From positions 5,485 through 45,353 of the forward strand of contig PMKN01000068.1 of the NCBI GenBank assembly GCA_003158675.1: DNA of 39,869 bases. The letters are read 5' to 3'. Within the stretch, counting starts at the first letter, position 1; each line of letters begins with the position of its first letter. The DNA is from Chloroflexota bacterium (lineage in GTDB: Bacteria > Chloroflexota > Limnocylindria > Limnocylindrales > CSP1-4). Below, piece by piece: positions 9,752-17,278 of the stretch. The notes under the pieces are model-generated. The model did no database searches and was not told the origin of the DNA. It saw only the letters and a list, made by a program, of their open reading frames with translations. The translations under genes were made by a program, and so were the position numbers.

Positions 9752-9922
9752 CTACGATTCCGTGCCGGCGCCTCTGTTCATGGTCGACTTCACGAGCCGC
9801 GATAGCCGCCCAGGGAGGAGCCGGCTGGCGACCGCCAGCAACGCTGCCGTGATGAAGATGCCGAGGAGCGCGGCGACGGTGTAGCTGCGCATCTTCTTCT
9901 TGCGCTGGCTGGTGTCATCCAT
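9752..9922 (-). CDS. Small single-pass membrane protein coupled to chorismate mutase
   Basis: I recognise no family. The ATG at 9922 gives 56 residues: a short charged N-terminus (DDTSQRKKKMRS), one hydrophobic helix (about residues 14-32, TVAALLGIFITAALLAVAS) and a basic C-terminus. The start overlaps the end of the chorismate mutase gene by 8 bases (ATGGATGA), the same type of overlap that joins chorismate mutase to aroQ, which supports translation. By the positive-inside pattern both flanks are basic, so topology is unclear. It could anchor something at the membrane or be unrelated to aromatic synthesis; no function can be given. Confidence 0.6.
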   Translation of the reverse strand: MDDTSQRKKKMRSYTVAALLGIFITAALLAVASRLLPGRLSRLVKSTMNRGAGTES

Positions 9923-10244
9923 TCGAGCCCCCATCCGAGCCTGAGCCAAGCTCCTCAAGACGCTTGATCGTCTCGATCAACTGGCGGTACAGCGCCACGA
10001 GCGCATCCTGAGGCATGGGGCCGTCGTTGGCCATAGCCACTCGGACCAGAACCTCGCGCTCTCGATCGGAATCGGCCACCGGCTTGCCCCTGCTGGCCTT
10101 GACGCTGCCGGCCCGGAGCCCGAGTCGAGCGCGGCGGTTCAGCAGCCTAACGATCTGAACGTCCAGGTCGTCGATTTGCGAACGCAGGGCATCGAGTTCG
10201 CCGGTCCCGATCTCGTCCTTGGGTTCCATCGGCTCGTCACCCAT
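9915..10244 (-). CDS. Chorismate mutase, AroQ class (type II)
   Basis: Chorismate mutase converts chorismate to prephenate, the entry to Phe and Tyr synthesis. The product is 109 residues and all-helical in appearance. The helix-1 motif LDALRSQIDDLDVQIVRLLNRRARLG, the central Lys of VKASRGKPVADSDRE, and the C-terminal ALYRQLIETIKRLEE fit the small monofunctional AroQ family. There is no fused prephenate dehydratase or DAHP synthase domain. The start at 10244 (ATGGGTGA) overlaps the aroQ stop by 8 bases. An in-frame upstream start at 10337 would lie deep inside aroQ. Its place in an operon led by a Phe/Tyr attenuator fits the role. Confidence 0.9.
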   Translation of the reverse strand: MGDEPMEPKDEIGTGELDALRSQIDDLDVQIVRLLNRRARLGLRAGSVKASRGKPVADSDREREVLVRVAMANDGPMPQDALVALYRQLIETIKRLEELGSGSDGGSNG

Positions 10245-10710
10245 TGCCGTCATCCGAGGGCTTCTCTCGAGGCTGCGCCACCGAGCCGAGCCGAATGGCG
10301 ATGAGCTCGAGGGCGGCGGTGTAGCCCGCGGGTCCACGGCCCACGATCCGCTCGACCGCGATGTCGTGCAGGAAGTTGACGTGCCGGAACTCCTCGCGCT
10401 CGGACGGGTCCGAGAGGTGCACCTCCACGAACGGACGGTCGATCCCGAGCAGGGCGTCCCGAAGCGAGACGCTGGTATGGGTCAACCCGCCCGCGTTCAC
10501 GATCGCCCAGTCGAAGTCGCGCCGTTGCAATCGGTCGATGAGGGCGCCTTCGTGGTTCGACTGGAAGGCCTCGACGGTCAGCCCGAGTTCGGCGCCGCGG
10601 CGAACCAGCCGTTCTTCTATCTCGGCCAGCGTCGTGGTGCCGTAGATTTCCGGCTCGCGCGTTCCGAGCAGGTTGAGGTTGGGGCCGTTGAGCACGAGAA
10701 CGCGAGTCAT
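10237..10710 (-). CDS. aroQ: Type II 3-dehydroquinate dehydratase
   Basis: This enzyme removes water from 3-dehydroquinate to give 3-dehydroshikimate, the third shikimate step. The 157 residues fit the type II family of about 145-160, which forms dodecamers. Motifs are LVLNGPNLNLLGTREPEIYG (catalytic Tyr in the flexible lid), FQSNHEGALIDRL, VNAGGLTHTSVSLRDAL, EVHLSDPSEREEFRH (catalytic His) and GRGPAGYTAAL. The usual INPGA(F/Y)THTS segment reads VNAGGLTHTS, a small departure. It overlaps the end of the kinase-synthase fusion by ATGA. Confidence 0.95.
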   Translation of the reverse strand: MTRVLVLNGPNLNLLGTREPEIYGTTTLAEIEERLVRRGAELGLTVEAFQSNHEGALIDRLQRRDFDWAIVNAGGLTHTSVSLRDALLGIDRPFVEVHLSDPSEREEFRHVNFLHDIAVERIVGRGPAGYTAALELIAIRLGSVAQPREKPSDDGNG

Positions 10711-12365
10711 AGTCGGATCGAGGCCTCCATGGCATGCGTTGGCGGGGCAGTTCGAAGAGCCGCGGCCAGGCCGATTTCCACTACCTCGGGGGGCACATCG
10801 GAACGAACGACGACCCCGCTTTCGGTCGGCAGCACCCAGCTCAGGCGACCCATGCCCCGCTTCTTGTCCGTGGCCATGTGCTCATGAACCATCTCCGCGG
10901 TCACCCGCGGTGCGGCGAGGGCCAGGCCCAGCCGGTCGAGCAGGTCCCCGATTCGGCGGGCCCGTTCCTCCGGAACGATGTCGAGGGCGCGGGCCATGGC
11001 GAAGGCGCCACGCAGGCCGTAGGCGACCGCCTCACCATGGAGAATCGTCTCGTAGCCCGCGGCCGCCTCGATGCCATGGCCGATGGTATGGCCTAGGTTC
11101 AGCGTCATGCGCAGGCCGGCATCGCGCTCATCCGCGGTGACTACCTCGACCTTGGCCCAGGCGCAACGCTCGACCAATTCGGCCAGACTGCCCGACTCGA
11201 ACGGCTGCTTGTCTCCGCGCGCGATCGCCTCGCCGTCCTGTTCGATCAACTCGAGGAGCCGCTCGTCGCCCAGGCAGCCCACCTTGACGGCTTCGCCGAG
11301 GGCGGCGCGAAGCTGGCGCGTTGGCAGGGTCGCCAGCAGCGCGATATCGGCCACGAAGGCAACGGGCTGATGAAATGCGCCCACCAGGTTCTTGCCCTCC
11401 GGCAGGTCTACTGCCGTCTTTCCGCCCAGAGCCGCGTCGATCTGACCCACGAGCGTCGTTGGGACCTGAACGATCGACACGCCGCGCAGGTAGGTGGCGG
11501 CCACGAACCCGGCCGTGTCGGTGAGCGCGCCGCCCCCGATCGCGACCAGCGTCTCCTTGCGATCGACGTGCAGCCGAACAAGCTCGCGGGAGATTCGTTC
11601 GACGACTCGCAGACGTTTGGCACGCTCGCCGCGCGGCAGGAGGATGCGCTCGACCGGCCAGCCGCCGGCGGCAAGGGCCGCCGCGATGGCGGCGCCTGCC
11701 ACTTCCCAGGCTTTGGGTTCCGACAGCAAGATGGCTCGGCTGGCCTGCTGACGTTGGAGGGCCACGTAGACCGAGGAGGCGGCAATCCCTTGGCCGATCT
11801 CGACTCGCCCGATCGACGTCTCGGCGCGCATCGTCATGACGGAGCCTGTCGGACCGGCTGCAGCGCGGGCCTCGACAGCCCGCACGATCGCACCTGCTGG
11901 AGCGCTCGAGCCGATCTCCAGTGCCGGCGAGTAGAAGCGGTCGCGCTCGGTTGCCAGTTCCCGCAGTGCGGCGACCGGGTCGCGCCCGGCGATCAGGGGG
12001 CGCACGTTTGCACTGTGGCTCAGGCGGCTGCCAAGGATGACGGGCGAGGCGCGCAGCCAGACGGCGACCCGGCCGCGGTACAGGTACCAGCGGTTCCGCG
12101 GATCGACTACGGCGCCACCGCCAGTCGCGATGACGCGGCGAATCCGCGGGTCCGAATCTGCCGGTCCGAGTGCGTGGACGGCTTCGCGTTCATGACCGCG
12201 AAAGCCGGCTTCGCCCTCGGTTTCGAAGATGGCGGATATGGAGCGGCCGACTCGGCGCTCGATCATCTCGTCGAGGTCGATGAAGGTGGCGTCGTGGCGG
12301 TGGGCGAGCCGCCGGCCCACGGCGCTCTTGCCGCTCCCCGGCAGGCCGACCAGGACAACGTCCAT
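10707..12365 (-). CDS. aroKB: Shikimate kinase-3-dehydroquinate synthase fusion
   Basis: A 552-residue bifunctional enzyme. Residues about 1-170 are shikimate kinase: Walker A GLPGSGKSAVG, DLDEMIERRVGRSI, FRGHE, ATGGGAVVDPRN and RPLIAG. Residues about 185-540 are dehydroquinate synthase: GGGALTDTAGFVAATYLRG, VPTTLVGQIDAALGGKT, GKNLVGAFHQP, GEAVKVG, LNLGHTIGHGIE and LHGEAVAYG, including the zinc-ligand Glu and His positions. It therefore covers steps 2 and 5 of the shikimate pathway. The start at 12365 lies 4 bases after the aroC stop; an in-frame start at 12425 would intrude into aroC. The same fusion order is known in other bacteria. Its stop overlaps aroQ by ATGA. Confidence 0.95.
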   Translation of the reverse strand: MDVVLVGLPGSGKSAVGRRLAHRHDATFIDLDEMIERRVGRSISAIFETEGEAGFRGHEREAVHALGPADSDPRIRRVIATGGGAVVDPRNRWYLYRGRVAVWLRASPVILGSRLSHSANVRPLIAGRDPVAALRELATERDRFYSPALEIGSSAPAGAIVRAVEARAAAGPTGSVMTMRAETSIGRVEIGQGIAASSVYVALQRQQASRAILLSEPKAWEVAGAAIAAALAAGGWPVERILLPRGERAKRLRVVERISRELVRLHVDRKETLVAIGGGALTDTAGFVAATYLRGVSIVQVPTTLVGQIDAALGGKTAVDLPEGKNLVGAFHQPVAFVADIALLATLPTRQLRAALGEAVKVGCLGDERLLELIEQDGEAIARGDKQPFESGSLAELVERCAWAKVEVVTADERDAGLRMTLNLGHTIGHGIEAAAGYETILHGEAVAYGLRGAFAMARALDIVPEERARRIGDLLDRLGLALAAPRVTAEMVHEHMATDKKRGMGRLSWVLPTESGVVVRSDVPPEVVEIGLAAALRTAPPTHAMEASIRL

Positions 12366-12369
12366 GGCC

Positions 12370-13653
12370 CTACTCGCTCTCGGCCGGGATTGCCCCCGGG
12401 CCTGCGGCCGGAGGCGTCGTGGCACGGCTCGATCGCGCGATGTTTCGGCGCGCGGTCTGCGCCCTGAACCGCGCGGCGTTGTCCAGTAGTTCCGTCATGG
12501 AGTCGCCGCCGAACTTGTCCAGCACGAAGCTCGCGAGCGTCAGGCAGACCATGGCCTCGGCCACGACTCCGGTGGCCGGCACGACGCTGATGTCGCTGCG
12601 TTCGTAGTGGGCCTTCTCGACGGGCTCGCCCGTTATGAGATCGGCCGACGCGAGCGGCCGCGGCAGCGTCGAGATGGGCTTGACCGCGCCCCGGATCAGG
12701 ATCGGCTGGCCGTTGGAGATGCCGCCCTCCAGGCCTCCGGCGTTGTTCGTACCGCGGAGCCAGTTGCCGTCGGCATCGCGCCTCTGGATGACGTCCTGGA
12801 CCGCCGAGCCGAACAGGCGCGTCTGTGCAAAGCCCAGCCCGAACTCGACGCCCTTGACGATCGGAATACTGGTAATAGCGCCGGCCAGCGCCGCATCGAG
12901 ACGCCGATCCCAATGGACATGGCTGCCGAGGCCGATCGGGACGCCCCGGACCACGACTTCGAAGACGCCGCCAACCGTATCGCCAGCATCGCGCGCAGCG
13001 TCGATGCGGGCGATCATCCGCGGCTCAGCCTCGGGGTCAAGGCAGCGCAGCGGACTTGCCTCGGCCTCTTTGCGAGGGCGAGTGGCGCGCCCCGGCTCGA
13101 TCGCCACTCCGCCGACTTCGGCAGTGTGCGACCAGACGTCGATGTCGAGCGCGGCGAGCATTGCCCGAGCCACGGCCCCGGCCGCGACTCGGGCAGCCGT
13201 CTCCCGGGCGGACGCTCTCTCCAGGACGTTGCGGACGTCGTCGAAGCCGTACTTGACGGCGCCGGCTAGATCCGCGTGCCCTGCTCGCAGCCGAGTGATC
13301 GGAGCGGCGCGTTTGTCGCCACTCTCAATCAACGCAGCCAGCTGGGAGGCCTGTTCGGCCGTCAGTGGCTCGATCTGCATCACCCGCGTCCAGTTGTCCC
13401 AGTCGCGGTTGCGGATGAGCAGGAGAATTGGCGAGCCGAGCGTAAGGCCATGCCGGACCCCGGCCAGGATCTCGGCTCGGTCGCGCTCTATCGAGGTACT
13501 GCGGGCCCCGCGGCCGTAGCCGAGCTGGCGCCGCGCCAGATCGAAAGCGATCGCCTCGGCGGTGAGTGGGAGCCCGGCGGGGATTCCGTCCAGCGTCGCA
13601 GCCAGGGCAGGACCGTGCGATTCTCCGGCGGTCAGGAAGCGCAGGCGACCCAT
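12370..13653 (-). CDS. aroC: Chorismate synthase
   Basis: AroC eliminates phosphate from EPSP to form chorismate using reduced FMN, the last shikimate step and the branch point feeding the trp operon on the other strand. The product is 427 residues, longer than the usual 360-390, with a poorly conserved C-terminal tail rich in Arg, Ala and Pro. Motifs are LTAGESHGPALAATLDGIPAGLPL, RRQLGYGRGARSTSIERD, the GHADLAGAVKYGFDDVRNVLERASARETAARVA region (given here only as its start and end) and GGLEGGISNGQPI. It lies 11 bases after aroE. Confidence 0.96.
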   Translation of the reverse strand: MGRLRFLTAGESHGPALAATLDGIPAGLPLTAEAIAFDLARRQLGYGRGARSTSIERDRAEILAGVRHGLTLGSPILLLIRNRDWDNWTRVMQIEPLTAEQASQLAALIESGDKRAAPITRLRAGHADLAGAVKYGFDDVRNVLERASARETAARVAAGAVARAMLAALDIDVWSHTAEVGGVAIEPGRATRPRKEAEASPLRCLDPEAEPRMIARIDAARDAGDTVGGVFEVVVRGVPIGLGSHVHWDRRLDAALAGAITSIPIVKGVEFGLGFAQTRLFGSAVQDVIQRRDADGNWLRGTNNAGGLEGGISNGQPILIRGAVKPISTLPRPLASADLITGEPVEKAHYERSDISVVPATGVVAEAMVCLTLASFVLDKFGGDSMTELLDNAARFRAQTARRNIARSSRATTPPAAGPGAIPAESE

Positions 13654-13664
13654 TGGACCGACCC

Positions 13665-14588
13665 TCAGCCGAGGGGCGCTGGCGAGCCGGCGCCAGAATC
13701 GGCCGGCGGCAGCGCGGTAGATCCCATGTCGATGGGCAGCTGACGAGGGCCTTGTTCGCGGGCACGATCCAATTCAGCCTGCATGACCTGCAGCGGGGCG
13801 GGCTTGCCCGTCCAGAGCTCGAACGATTTCGCGCCCTGCTGTAGCAGCATTTGCTCGCCGCTGGCTGTGGTGCAGCCGGCAGCGGCCGCATCTTTGAGGA
13901 GCTGCGATACGGGCGGGTTGTAGATGAGGTCCATGACCAGGAGATCGGGTGGCAGAAGCTCGGCCGGGATGGGCGTCTCGCCCGCCAGGCCCAGCGAGGT
14001 GCAGTTGATCAGGATCTTGCCCTTGGCCAGCTCAGCCTCCAGGACCGACTCGTGCCACGGCATCGCCCGCAGATCCATGTGCGCGGCGCTCCGGCCGAAG
14101 TGGCGGACCATGCCCTCGGCTCGATGGAGGTGGCGATTGAAGACCACGACTCGCTGGAATCCCTCCGTGATCAGGGCGTAGACGACAGCCCGCGCGGCTC
14201 CGCCAGCGCCGAGGACGACCGCATGGCGCGGCATCTTCTGGCGACCGACGAGCTTGTCGAGGGCGGCTTTGAAGCCGGCTACGTCCGTGTTGTGCCCGAT
14301 CAGCCGCTTGCCGTCGCGCGATATGACGTTGACGGCGCCGATCGCCTGGGCCTCCTCGGTCAGTTTGTCGACGAGCGGAACGACATGCTCCTTGTGGGGA
14401 ATCGTGATGTTCGCCCCGAGGAAGTCGTCGCCGCGCAACTCGGCAATGGCGTCGGGAAGCTCGGACGTCCGCCGGTCCCAGAGTTCGTAGCGGGCATCGA
14501 TGTCGAGCGCATCGAAGGCAGCCTGCTGCATCCCACCCGAGAACGAGTGGGCGACCGGGTGGCCGATCAGGACGACGCGGTTGGTCAT
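13665..14588 (-). CDS. aroE: Shikimate dehydrogenase (NADP)
   Basis: AroE reduces 3-dehydroshikimate to shikimate. The product is 307 residues, about 30 more than usual, the excess being a C-terminal Pro/Ala-rich tail. Motifs are LIGHPVAHSFSGGMQQAAFDAL (substrate loop), NITIPHKEHV (catalytic Lys), IGHNTDVAGF (catalytic Asp), the nucleotide loop VLGAGGAARAVVYAL, VFNRHLHRAE and LINCTSLG. The substrate-loop HSLSP of most family members reads HSFSG. The start at 14588 overlaps the aroA stop by ATGA. Confidence 0.95.
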   Translation of the reverse strand: MTNRVVLIGHPVAHSFSGGMQQAAFDALDIDARYELWDRRTSELPDAIAELRGDDFLGANITIPHKEHVVPLVDKLTEEAQAIGAVNVISRDGKRLIGHNTDVAGFKAALDKLVGRQKMPRHAVVLGAGGAARAVVYALITEGFQRVVVFNRHLHRAEGMVRHFGRSAAHMDLRAMPWHESVLEAELAKGKILINCTSLGLAGETPIPAELLPPDLLVMDLIYNPPVSQLLKDAAAAGCTTASGEQMLLQQGAKSFELWTGKPAPLQVMQAELDRAREQGPRQLPIDMGSTALPPADSGAGSPAPLG

Positions 14589-15973
14589 GCTCTCAGCCTC
14601 TCAAGTTCCGTGAAGAAGCTCGGGTAGGAGACGGCCGCGCTCTCGGCGTGGTCTATCGTCGTTGCTCCCCGGGCGATGGTTCCGGCCACGGCGAATGTCA
14701 TCGCCAGCCGATGGTCGTCGAGTGTCCGTGTGGCGGCCCCGACGAGCGGCGTCGGGCCGATGATCGTGATGTCGTCGCCGCTCACCGAGATCCGCGCTCC
14801 AAGCGCGCTGAGCCCGGCGGCCACGCCCGCGATGCGATCGGATTCCTTGTTGCGCAGCTCGCCGGCGCCACGGATCGTGGTCTCGCCGCGAGCCTGCGTG
14901 GCAGCCAGGCACAGTATCGGAATCTCGTCGATCGCTGCGGCCACCTCCGCCGGCCCGAGCTGGACCGCTCGCAACTCGCTGGTCCGAACGGTCAGGTCGG
15001 CCAGCGGCTCGCCGACTCCGTCCGCTTCTCGGGAGCCGGCCGCGTCGGCCGGACGCCCACCCGCAGGCGCCTCGTCGATGAGAGCACCCATCCGGACCAG
15101 GTAGTCGATGGCGGCCCGGCGAGTGGGATTGACACCCACATTGCGCAACGTCAGCTGCGCGTCCGGGTGGATCGCTCCCGCGACCAGCCAGAAGGCCGCG
15201 GCCGAGGGATCGGCCGGCACTCGTTCGTCGAGCGTGGAGAGTCGCACTCCACCCTCCAGCGTCCAGGCCACCGCTCCGCCTCCAGACTCATCCGCCGACT
15301 CACGCCGGACCTCGACGCCGCGCGAGCGCAGCATTCGCTCCGTATGGTCCCGCGTGGCAATAGCCTCGCGCACCGTCGTTCGCCCCTCTGCGCGCAGGCC
15401 GGCCAGCAGGATCGCCGACTTGACCTGGGCGCTCGGCACGCGAGTCGAGAAGTCGATCGCCCGAAGTGGCGAGCGACCGATGACGACCAGCGGTGGGAGG
15501 GAATCGGATCGACGCGCGCAGAGATCTGCGCCCATCGAGCGCAGCGGTTCGATGATACGGGCCACCGGACGGCTCCGCAACGAATCGTCGCCGTCCAAGA
15601 CGGAGAAGAAGGGCAGCCCGGCGAGGACGCCGGAACACAGCCGCAGGCTCGTCCCCGAGTTGCGACAGTCGAGCACGCCTGCGGCTTCGTGGAGACCCTC
15701 GACGCCTGGCGAGACGACCATGTAGTTCACGTTCAGGCCGTCTTCGGCGAGCCGCTCCACGTGAGCGCCGAGCGCGGCAACGATCCCCGCGGTGGCCTGG
15801 ACGTCGCGCCCGTCGCCCGCGCCTGAAATCAGGCTACGGCCTTCGGCCAGGGCAGCCATGAGCAAAGCCCGGTGCGAGATCGACTTGTCGCCGGGCAGGC
15901 GAGGCTCGCCGCGCAGGCGCGCGACGGGCTGGACAGACCGGGGTCGCTCCCCGGGAAGCTGCGAGGGGTTCAT
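14585..15973 (-). CDS. aroA: 3-phosphoshikimate 1-carboxyvinyltransferase (EPSP synthase)
   Basis: AroA joins phosphoenolpyruvate to shikimate 3-phosphate. The product is 462 residues against a usual 430, with a variable Gly/Ala/Asp insert at about residues 305-330. Motifs are LPGDKSISHRALLMAALAEG (start of domain 1), NSGTSLRLCSGVLAG, RPVARIIEPLRSMGA, PSAQVKSAILLAGL and, near the C-terminus, NKESDRIAGVAAGL and DDHRLAMTFAVAG. The ATG at 15973 lies 5 bases after the DAHP synthase stop. Sensitivity to PEP-analogue inhibitors cannot be judged by eye. Confidence 0.96.
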   Translation of the reverse strand: MNPSQLPGERPRSVQPVARLRGEPRLPGDKSISHRALLMAALAEGRSLISGAGDGRDVQATAGIVAALGAHVERLAEDGLNVNYMVVSPGVEGLHEAAGVLDCRNSGTSLRLCSGVLAGLPFFSVLDGDDSLRSRPVARIIEPLRSMGADLCARRSDSLPPLVVIGRSPLRAIDFSTRVPSAQVKSAILLAGLRAEGRTTVREAIATRDHTERMLRSRGVEVRRESADESGGGAVAWTLEGGVRLSTLDERVPADPSAAAFWLVAGAIHPDAQLTLRNVGVNPTRRAAIDYLVRMGALIDEAPAGGRPADAAGSREADGVGEPLADLTVRTSELRAVQLGPAEVAAAIDEIPILCLAATQARGETTIRGAGELRNKESDRIAGVAAGLSALGARISVSGDDITIIGPTPLVGAATRTLDDHRLAMTFAVAGTIARGATTIDHAESAAVSYPSFFTELERLRA

Positions 15974-15978
15974 GGCCG

Positions 15979-17055
15979 TCAGTGCTTGCTGACCCCGTCA
16001 ACCCGAACCGGGCCGGCCATGGCAAAAGGATCCTTGTTGAGGGTCTTGACCTCCTCGTGGATCTTCTTGAGCGCGCTCGCCATGTCTTCGAACTGGGCGA
16101 ACGTGAGCGATTGCTCGCCGTCGGACTTGGCCTCGTCCGGCTTGGGGTGAACCTCGACCATGATCCCGTCGGCTCCGGCGGCGACCGCAGCCATTGCCAT
16201 CGGCCTCACCAGCCAGCGCTTCCCGGTGGCATGGGACGGGTCGACGACGACCGGCAGATGGGTCAGATGGTGGAGCAGAGGCACGGCCGTCAGGTCGAGC
16301 GTGTTGCGGGTGTAGGTCTCGAAGGTTCGGATGCCGCGCTCGCACAGGATCACGTTGGGCTGGCCCGACGAGACGATGTACTCGGCGGCCATGAGCCACT
16401 CTTCGATCGTGGCCCCGAAGCCGCGCTTGAGCATGACGGGCTTGCCGGCCTTTCCCACTGCCGTCAACAGGGAGTAGTTCTGCATGTTGCGGGTGCCGAC
16501 CTGGAGGATGTCGGAGTGCTTTGCGACGACCTCCACCTGGCTCGGCTCCATGACCTCGGTGATCGTGGGCAGGCCCGTCGCCTTGCCGGCGTCATGGAGG
16601 TATTCCAGGCCCTCGATGCCCAGTCCCTGGAAGGCGTACGGGCTGGTGCGCGGCTTGAACGCACCGCCTCGCAGGATCGTGGCGCCGCCATTGGCCACGG
16701 CCTGGGCCGTCTCGATCATCATGGCTCGCCCTTCGATGGAGCAGGGGCCGGCCATGATCGTGAGCGTGCCGTTGCCTATCCTGGTGCCGTGCAGCTCGAC
16801 GATCGTGTCTTCGGGGTGGGACTCCCGCGATGTGAGCTTGAAGGGCCGGCTGATGGGCGTCACGGAGTCGACGCCGGGCATGAGGTTCAACTTGCTCATG
16901 AGATGGTCCCTCTGCGGCCCAACGTCGCCCAGGACGGCGATCACCACTCGTTGCGTGCCGTAGTTGTCATGTGGCGTTAGTCCGGCACTCGCTATCAAGT
17001 CCCGGACGTCTTTGGCTTCTTGTTCGGTTGCCCCTACGGACATCACGACGATCAT
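15979..17055 (-). CDS. aroF: 3-deoxy-7-phosphoheptulonate (DAHP) synthase, type I-beta
   Basis: DAHP synthase condenses PEP and erythrose 4-phosphate, the first shikimate step. From the ATG at 17055 (AGAAGGA seven bases upstream) the product is 358 residues. An N-terminal ferredoxin-like domain (about residues 1-70, [17 protein letters not shown]) is the regulatory domain known from Thermotoga-type enzymes, where it mediates feedback inhibition. The TIM barrel follows with [67 protein letters not shown] and [19 protein letters not shown]. The open frame extends to 17163 but that part contains the terminator stem, so 17055 is preferred. It is first in the operon, right after the Phe/Tyr attenuator. 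Confidence 0.95.
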
Positions 17056-17126: not shown

Positions 17127-17154
17127 CAAAAAAGCAGAGGCGCTGCCTCTGCTT
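17127..17154 (-). terminator. Attenuator terminator of the aro operon
   Basis: On the minus strand AAGCAGAGGC (17154-17145) pairs perfectly with GCCTCTGCTT (17141-17132) across a 3-base loop, ending in a run of six T (17133-17128). It lies between the leader peptide stop and the DAHP synthase start, the position of a transcription attenuator. Confidence 0.88.
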
Positions 17155-17197
17155 ACCCGGCACGACCCGCGATCCCGGGCCTAGGCTCCGGGAACGG

Positions 17198-17236
17198 TCA
17201 TGCCGGGTTGCGGTAAAAGAAGAAGATGTGTTCCAT
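17198..17236 (-). CDS. Phe/Tyr attenuator leader peptide (MEHIFFFYRNPA)
   Basis: An ATG at 17236 opens a 12-codon frame ending in TGA at 17200-17198. It reads MEHIFFFYRNPA, with three Phe codons and one Tyr codon in a row (codons 5-8). The frame lies between a promoter (17250-17278) and an intrinsic terminator (17127-17154), upstream of the complete shikimate operon plus chorismate mutase. This is the layout of classical ribosome-mediated attenuation: shortage of charged tRNA-Phe or tRNA-Tyr stalls the ribosome at codons 5-8 and favours read-through. The bases of codons 9-12 (ACCCGGCA, 17208-17201) are perfectly complementary to TGCCGGGT (17162-17155) next to the terminator. No Shine-Dalgarno site is seen; the mRNA would start only about 7 bases upstream. 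Confidence 0.82.
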   Translation of the reverse strand: MEHIFFFYRNPA

Positions 17237-17249
17237 GTCAGTGGAGCCG

Positions 17250-17278
17250 ACAGTAGCGGGCGCCGGGGCGGGTGTCAA
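17250..17278 (-). promoter_or_regulatory. Promoter of the aro operon
   Basis: On the minus strand a perfect -35 box TTGACA (17278-17273) is followed after 17 bases by TACTGT (17255-17250). Transcription would start near 17243, about 7 bases before the leader-peptide ATG. A 10-base inverted repeat, ATGTCAGTGG (17235-17244) and CCACTGACAT (17297-17306), brackets the promoter. Confidence 0.7.

Follow-up and report, generated by a model that had tools for sequence, protein, structure and literature searches.

How is the shikimate operon of this Chloroflexota bacterium regulated, and does the DNA in front of its first gene encode a switch that senses amino acids? The window, i.e., the whole stretch of 39,869 nucleotides analysed here, carries the following genes, listed in the order of transcription:

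15979..17055, minus strand, DAHP synthase (AroF type), first gene of the operon (Pfam DAHP_synth_1, 1.9e-82; start inferred)
14585..15973, minus strand, aroA, EPSP synthase
13665..14588, minus strand, aroE, shikimate dehydrogenase
12370..13653, minus strand, aroC, chorismate synthase
10707..12425, minus strand, aroKB fusion, shikimate kinase and 3-dehydroquinate synthase
10237..10710, minus strand, aroQ, type II dehydroquinase
9915..10337, minus strand, chorismate mutase (CM_2)

The most likely start of the DAHP synthase gene is the ATG at 17055 (MIVVMS, after AAGAAGGA) rather than the more upstream GTG assigned to the mechanical ORF. The mechanical ORFs of this tight aro operon overlap or are separated by gaps of at most 11 nt, and we infer from this packing that a leader in front of the first gene would control all seven genes. 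The initial annotation counted seven common-pathway genes plus chorismate mutase; all the activities are indeed present, but, because shikimate kinase and 3-dehydroquinate synthase are fused, the seven common-pathway activities are accommodated in six ORFs. Upstream of the operon, the following elements can be recognized:

17278-17273, minus strand, -35 element TTGACA, read from the sequence
17255-17250, minus strand, -10 element TACTGT, read from the sequence, 17-nt spacer from the -35 element
17236-17198, minus strand, leader peptide ORF MEHIFFFYRNPA, read from the sequence, with ATG at 17236-17234 and stop codon TGA at 17200-17198
17224-17213, minus strand, regulatory codons TTC TTC TTT TAC (Phe5-Phe7, Tyr8), the last Phe codon being TTT
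17207-17156, minus strand, hairpin A, with an outer stem of 17207-17196 paired with 17167-17156 and an inner stem of 17193-17188 paired with 17178-17173
17201-17181, minus strand, possible AUGA-coupled mini-ORF ATG ACC GTT CCC GGA GCC TAG (MTVPGA), speculative and found in some lineages only
17154-17132, minus strand, intrinsic terminator with the 10-bp stem AAGCAGAGGC/GCCTCTGCTT, followed by a U-tract to 17128

The promoter TTGACA-17-TACTGT, the ATG, the Phe-Phe-Phe-Tyr leader and the perfect 10-bp terminator described in the initial annotation are all present on the minus strand; hairpin A is absent from that description. The leader frame reads ATG GAA CAC ATC TTC TTC TTT TAC CGC AAC CCG GCA TGA, which translates as M E H I F F F Y R N P A stop, with Phe-Phe-Phe-Tyr at codons 5-8, i.e., a short ORF in which codons for amino acids made downstream form a run, as expected of a ribosome-mediated attenuator. 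The ATG lies 13 nt downstream of TACTGT. As a promoter call, the latter hexamer is weak by itself, being equal to TATAAT at only 3 of the 6 positions and escaping a consensus scan; it becomes believable as a -10 element because a TTGACA-like box (at least 5/6) followed by TAnnnT at a spacing of 16-18 is present in 50/53 leaders of the window's order, Limnocylindrales (class Limnocylindria), compared to 0.08% of base shuffles. Thus, the leader ORF is preceded by a conserved promoter-like pair, another expected component of such attenuators. In the leaders of this order, the start codon lies 6-15 nt (mostly 9-13) behind the -10 box, and among the 124 leaders compared across the phylum, 87 have a TAnnnT box 6-13 nt upstream of an in-frame start (most commonly at 9 nt, in 27 leaders) and 37 do not, in a count that allowed 4-14 nt, took the best box and has no chance control. 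This conserved spacing supports the earlier suggestion that the transcript is leaderless or near-leaderless. The leader stop codon overlaps a start codon as AUGA in 63 leaders, with an ensuing frame of 5-7 codons in 53 of these; in the window, the stop of this frame falls in the loop of hairpin A. Such frames may represent coupled mini-ORFs or relics of longer leaders.

The RNA structure of the leader is unusually stable. The 122-nt leader folds with -61.6 kcal/mol (z = -6.0), a value that 0/200 shuffled sequences equalled. The terminator, located between the leader ORF and the first gene as in other attenuators of this kind, consists of a perfect 10-bp stem with 6 G-C pairs, a loop of 3 and TTTTTTG (a run of six T), and in the window is separated from hairpin A by the single base T17155. 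Our assessment of covariation is based on a model-guided alignment of 101 matches (A2), which leans to the modelled structure and includes one antisense match (L003). In this alignment, hairpin A covaries strongly: all 12 outer pairs and all 6 inner pairs show two-sided changes. The structure as a whole is paired in 92.2% of the cells compared to 76.1% after shuffling and 37-55% after sliding, with 389 double-change cells compared to 121 in the shuffled control. RNAalifold on a MAFFT alignment (A1) recovered only 8 hairpin A pairs, one of them compensatory, and no terminator, the latter because MAFFT misaligned the terminator 5′ arms. Beside the freely covarying hairpin A, the terminator stem GCAGAGG/CCTCTGC (A2 columns 176-182 paired with 207-213) is nearly frozen: its seven core pairs are almost invariant, with the commonest pair in 94-100 of the 101 rows and, at one position, 91, whereas the pair adjoining the loop varies freely. 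The exact GCAGAGG is found in 117/125 leaders, a figure inflated by the covariance model used for the search (R1, see below), which was built with this motif and favours such stems, and variant terminator stems do occur (L040, L188, L199, L261 and L266). L261 (MKSFFWYYT by eye) and L266 (MSHLYYWFT) are two divergent leaders from the same family; their terminators have changed, and the first hairpin contains a copy of GCAGAGG.

The spatial arrangement of these parts is conserved as well. The linker between hairpin A and the seven-base terminator core measures 1-7 nt (1-3 in 81/118 leaders, 1-4 in 103/118). The leader stop codon lies 6-13 nt past the first base of hairpin A, in its 5′ arm, in 88/124 leaders and 20-46 nt past it, in the far arm or loop, in the remaining 36; at all these positions, a ribosome that has finished the peptide would disturb the upstream hairpin, as in trp-type attenuators. 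No Rfam model (4227 models, release 15) matched the window at the gathering score, and at E up to 1, an irrelevant microRNA model was the sole match. As a separate observation, terminators with the GCAGAGG stem are also found where there is no such leader, before an MFS gene in L276 and after a transporter-like gene (assigned by eye) in the family f10 genomes represented by L273, L281 and L283.

How widespread is the element? Among the named DAHP synthase loci, the closest relatives belong to Chloroflexi MAGs, e.g., fen_1069. DAHP synthase was found in 51/61 genomes, including the window's own, and the loci read upstream show the same kind of leader. Both the codon run and the terminator are retained in homologues, so that the objection anticipated in the initial annotation, namely, homologous loci devoid of both, does not apply. 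R1, built from 29 leaders, matches 90/107 genomes of the window's family, the own genome included, where the element was found once (at 82% completeness); this recurrence, combined with the single occurrence, argues against chance. Across the phylum, R1 matches 119/400 sampled genomes (E up to 0.01), 30 in the window's family, 3 in a sister family of the same order and 86 elsewhere. One hundred further stretches were fetched in five batches of 20. For the 119 genomes, matches in about 100 stretches were inspected singly, and at least two of these are doubtful. Leaders from distant families include MQHFYYWFSPPA, MEAMAARHQYWFAYYFSPPALLVGREVLSG and MHTAFYYFSGGTTELLIAQ. Of 80 named DAHP synthase loci, nine match R1 at E below 1e-6, eight of them labelled Chloroflexi and one Proteobacteria; the other 71 lack a sense-strand match at E up to 1, and the non-matching loci include two from Dehalococcoidia, one from Anaerolineales and L046, a Chloroflexi contig that ends before any leader could lie. 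The contig labelled as a Proteobacteria MAG (L040; leader WYYYF) could reflect either a mislabelled bin or a transfer. In three DAHP synthase loci from other families of the class (G056, G058 and G060), there is no such leader, and aroF follows closely behind another gene, as judged by eye. Two covariance model matches were disregarded as doubtful or due to chance, namely, L183 and L197, the latter located in front of a gene that by eye resembles uvrB. Together with these two, L035, L036, L055, L185 and L261 were left out before terminators were counted, leaving 129 leaders; L168, L198, L212 and L232, which have no recognised terminator, and L186 were dropped before folding (124 leaders), and six more before the 5′-arm pairing test (118 leaders). 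Two pairs of apparently identical contigs, L037/L244 and L041/L256, which agree in length and sequence, are counted twice, and all counts ignore kinship between the sequences.

The genes behind the leaders offer a way to ask what the codon run senses. A DAHP synthase-like match lies downstream of 116/117 leaders without assignment to another gene; given that 33 loci had been fetched by DAHP synthase itself, the independent figure is 83/84. Other leaders precede pheS (L164, L166 and L167), tyrS (L172, and L278, found by its terminator pattern), a chorismate mutase-prephenate dehydrogenase (TyrA) fusion (L188), AroH-type chorismate mutases (L186 and L237/L262) and a tyrA-aroF pair (L226/L263). 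Every one of the 124 leaders scored has a codon for Phe, Tyr or Trp among the 8 codons before hairpin A, and 109/124 have three or more, counted in the frame chosen as the richest in these codons. Tyr-only leaders account for 4 of the 5 scored tyrosine-branch loci and 0/117 others (Fisher 6e-7, kinship ignored): over the eleven codons that end at hairpin A, L172, L186, L188 and L237 contain Tyr but neither Phe nor Trp, the exception being the mixed leader L226, before tyrA and then aroF. Likewise, Phe-only leaders precede 2 of the 3 pheS genes and 2/117 others, the third pheS leader (L167) being mixed. Outside the scored set, and judged by eye, the tyrS leader L278 has a single Tyr, and L274, before a chorismate mutase fusion, is mixed. 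In two genomes of family f38 (G288 and G390), a Trp/Tyr leader at one locus is paired with a Tyr-only leader at the other (L184/L237 and L187/L188), which suggests isozyme-specific sensing. Even with its exceptions, this match of residues to genes speaks more strongly than any other observation for the codons being the sensor. A pattern search for further Tyr-type leaders yielded raw, uninspected matches in 86/400 genomes.

Several related loci deserve mention in their own right. In genome G190, two DAHP synthase genes, of different types by eye, both lie behind such leaders (L173 and L174). In family f13, related leaders were found by the terminator pattern alone (L274, L275 and L284), one of them with four consecutive Trp codons; L275 and L284 precede DAHP synthase and L274 a methyltransferase-chorismate mutase fusion, and the hairpin that precedes the terminator was seen by eye to carry CUCUG, a complement of the terminator arm.

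Codon choice within the run is also biased. In the window's family, the Phe codon nearest hairpin A is TTT in 43/49 leaders, compared to 7/50 for the other Phe codons of the same leaders (TTC in 43/50), and TTC is used for 38/42 Phe codons in five aro operon genes (Fisher 3e-14 against the other leader codons and 8e-15 against the aro genes, kinship ignored). In other Chloroflexota, the nearest Phe codon is TTT in 61/61 leaders, and the remaining leader Phe codons are TTT in 45/66. A codon read by wobble may make a slower stall codon; the last TTT could possibly be such a codon or else reflect a constraint on the RNA.

Collectively, the sequence, its conservation and covariation, the association with aromatic genes and the trend of leader residues to match the gene make it highly probable that the element attenuates transcription by way of the ribosome, with charged tRNA-Phe and tRNA-Tyr as the signal and the shikimate operon as the target; the initial proposal of an attenuator with a Phe/Tyr leader in front of a complete shikimate operon is supported. 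From anatomy and logic, the switch might operate as follows. Judging from promoter spacing, RNA polymerase would start a few nucleotides before the leader ATG, and a ribosome would load on the bare 5′ end. With ample Phe and Tyr, the ribosome would pass the codon run and reach the stop, which lies in the 5′ arm of hairpin A, and it might then hop via the AUGA overlap to the second stop in the loop; hairpin A would then be blocked, the terminator would form and transcription would stop. When Phe or Tyr is short, the ribosome would stall on codons 5-8, just before hairpin A, which would fold, and, by the logic of biosynthetic control, the polymerase would continue into the operon.

In the classical attenuator model, the terminator is opposed by a competing 2:3 antiterminator. 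It is here that the initial annotation, which considered the attenuation to be classical, parts with our results: folding and pairing tests on the Chloroflexota leaders detected no antiterminator that excludes the terminator, as would be expected of the trp type. Throughout the 124 folded leaders, the terminator has a predicted probability of 0.95-1.00, regardless of whether the ribosome is missing, has stalled or has reached the stop, so that none of the modelled ribosome positions is predicted to exclude the terminator thermodynamically. Two candidate pairings of the terminator 5′ arm fail as well: one with the leader RNA that precedes hairpin A (mean 0.476 compared to 0.500 for permuted arms, better than the control in 45/118 leaders) and one with the RNA that follows the blocked part, for the most part the hairpin A 3′ arm (0.366 compared to 0.424, and 0.403 compared to 0.413). 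Pairing of the aromatic codons with the terminator arm was rejected by eye, given that a stalled ribosome covers these codons. When the transcript is truncated ahead of the terminator 3′ arm, mean pairing of the 5′ arm is 0.24 in the stalled state and 0.45 with the ribosome at the stop, i.e., the arm is freer when the ribosome stalls, opposite to the simple model.

How, then, might readthrough be achieved? The mechanism that we favour, as a guess, is that hairpin A is transiently extended before the terminator 3′ arm is made, such that RNA just past the stall codons would pair with the terminator 5′ arm. This amounts to a classical three-helix switch, where a stalled ribosome lets the post-stall RNA pair around hairpin A, the extended hairpin A being the antiterminator, and a moving ribosome prevents the pairing; we consider this scenario a serious contender but somewhat short of an even chance. 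The extension is predicted in both actinobacterial DAHP synthase leaders examined, L093 (a Streptosporangiaceae MAG) and L099 (Planotetraspora), which share the layout and, once truncated ahead of the terminator 3′ arm and blocked over their first 30 nt, form the enclosing helix, in a calculation without permutation control; at full length, however, both fold with the terminator. Some Chloroflexota lineages with ACUUUAGC before hairpin A also outperform permuted arms (0.82 compared to 0.59 in L163, 0.82 compared to 0.55 in L173 and 0.85 compared to 0.54 in L174), and the preference for TTT as the last Phe codon (43/49 compared to 7/50) implies an RNA-level or decoding constraint. Against this, over the 118 leaders, the pairing is no better than with permuted arms, the window's own leader scoring 0.37 compared to 0.43, so that the extension is unsupported as a general rule in Chloroflexota, and a ribosome stalled in the window's codons, with a footprint as generally known, would cover most of the partner segment. 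The greater freedom of the terminator 5′ arm in the stalled state would even suit a switch of the opposite sign, in which stalling causes termination and flow causes readthrough, but such a switch makes little sense for biosynthetic and tRNA synthetase genes and runs contrary to what is reported, in the portions of the literature available, for aroR of Corynebacterium glutamicum; we regard it as very improbable.

Alternatively, readthrough might require no alternative pairing at all, if the adjacent hairpin A hinders termination or a factor reads the GCAGAGG/CCTCTGC stem. The short linker (1-3 nt in 81/118 leaders, 7 at most), the contrast between a hairpin A that is free to vary and seven terminator pairs that hardly do, with exact GCAGAGG in 117/125 leaders, and the fruitless search for alternative pairings all fit this possibility. 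Yet, R1 was built with GCAGAGG and favours this stem, changed stems exist (L040, L188, L199 and L266), and we know of no factor that reads it, so that we deem this explanation rather unlikely, without dismissing it. With similar reserve, we entertain as a speculation a Chloroflexota-wide leaderless-peptide regulon (aroF, pheS, tyrS and chorismate mutase/TyrA) in which a freely evolving hairpin is set against a frozen terminator, with no competing antiterminator, and adjacency or a GCAGAGG-reading factor would make the decision. Finally, the element could be no more than a common 5′ terminator or insulator in which an ORF occurs by chance, or the ORF could encode a real small protein, given that the peptide ending PA is near-constant in the window's family. 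This ending is, however, explained by the RNA arm CCCGGCATGA, and the aromatic codons are kept and mostly matched to the gene while the other residues and the lengths vary; this last alternative is scarcely credible.

Returning to the ribosome-mediated attenuator, how novel is it? According to the parts of the sources available, leader-peptide attenuation was known in 2010 from Proteobacteria and Actinobacteria alone, before the His case of the survey in question (PMC2965389), and His leaders in Firmicutes were added by a 2022 study (PMC9413887). The open-licence literature searched, including the accessible portions of PMC4833913, PMC3766115, PMC9413887 and PMC2864571, yielded no description of an attenuator of this kind from Chloroflexi/Chloroflexota. 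Within that literature, we very likely deal with a conserved aromatic amino acid leader-peptide attenuator new to Chloroflexota, and, as modelled, its layout appears to be a variant one, with no detectable antiterminator. The results point to one RNA element, with residues tending to follow the gene, in front of aromatic genes across many families of a phylum that has, for the most part, not been cultured, and the element names the likely signal for a whole operon. R1 is provided as a ready covariance model, and the leaders pose a sharp question, namely, how a stalled ribosome overrides a terminator without a visible competitor.

Among known systems, mycobacterial poly-Cys leaders, reportedly described by Canestrari in 2020, are said to be leaderless attenuators. 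The trpL1, leuL and ilvL leaders of Streptomyces lividans are likewise leaderless amino acid attenuators, and trpL1, as far as the available part of the source describes it, has the same general layout, a leaderless ORF followed by two hairpins and a U-rich stretch; these leaders serve other amino acids and genes, and the likeness drawn here is one of layout (PMC8079986). The classical trp attenuators of Actinobacteria share the leader, stop and terminator, but, judging from the portion of the source at hand, their antiterminator and terminator have conserved complementary triples in common, and no such triple was found here (PMC1262725). A ‘pheA’ motif from Actinobacteria, listed in a table of PMC2864571, is a candidate cis-regulatory RNA named after a Phe gene and is compared here by name only. 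By eye, the actinobacterial leaders L093 and L099 (QFWFWFGY and FSFWYG) have the two-hairpin layout and a predicted competing helix enclosing the first hairpin. Attenuation of this kind was initially held to be best known from enterobacterial phe/pheST operons, and E. coli pheA (pheL) and pheST, in the partial accounts available, do resemble the present system in the Phe leader, with pheS also a target in some Chloroflexota, but there, the classical model has a competing 2:3 antiterminator, whereas none was found in the Chloroflexota leaders. This comparison overlooks what appears to be the nearest known system, the aroR-aroF attenuator of C. glutamicum, reportedly described by Neshat et al. 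in 2014. As far as the consulted parts of the literature go, with the experimental evidence cited from a review, stalling on the aroR leader (Phe-Tyr-Phe) under Phe limitation raises transcription of aroF, with no response to Tyr (PMC11802643, PMC4046766). That system is actinobacterial and, as reported, unresponsive to Tyr, and we liken the two by leader and gene alone; in both, an aromatic leader stands before a DAHP synthase gene.
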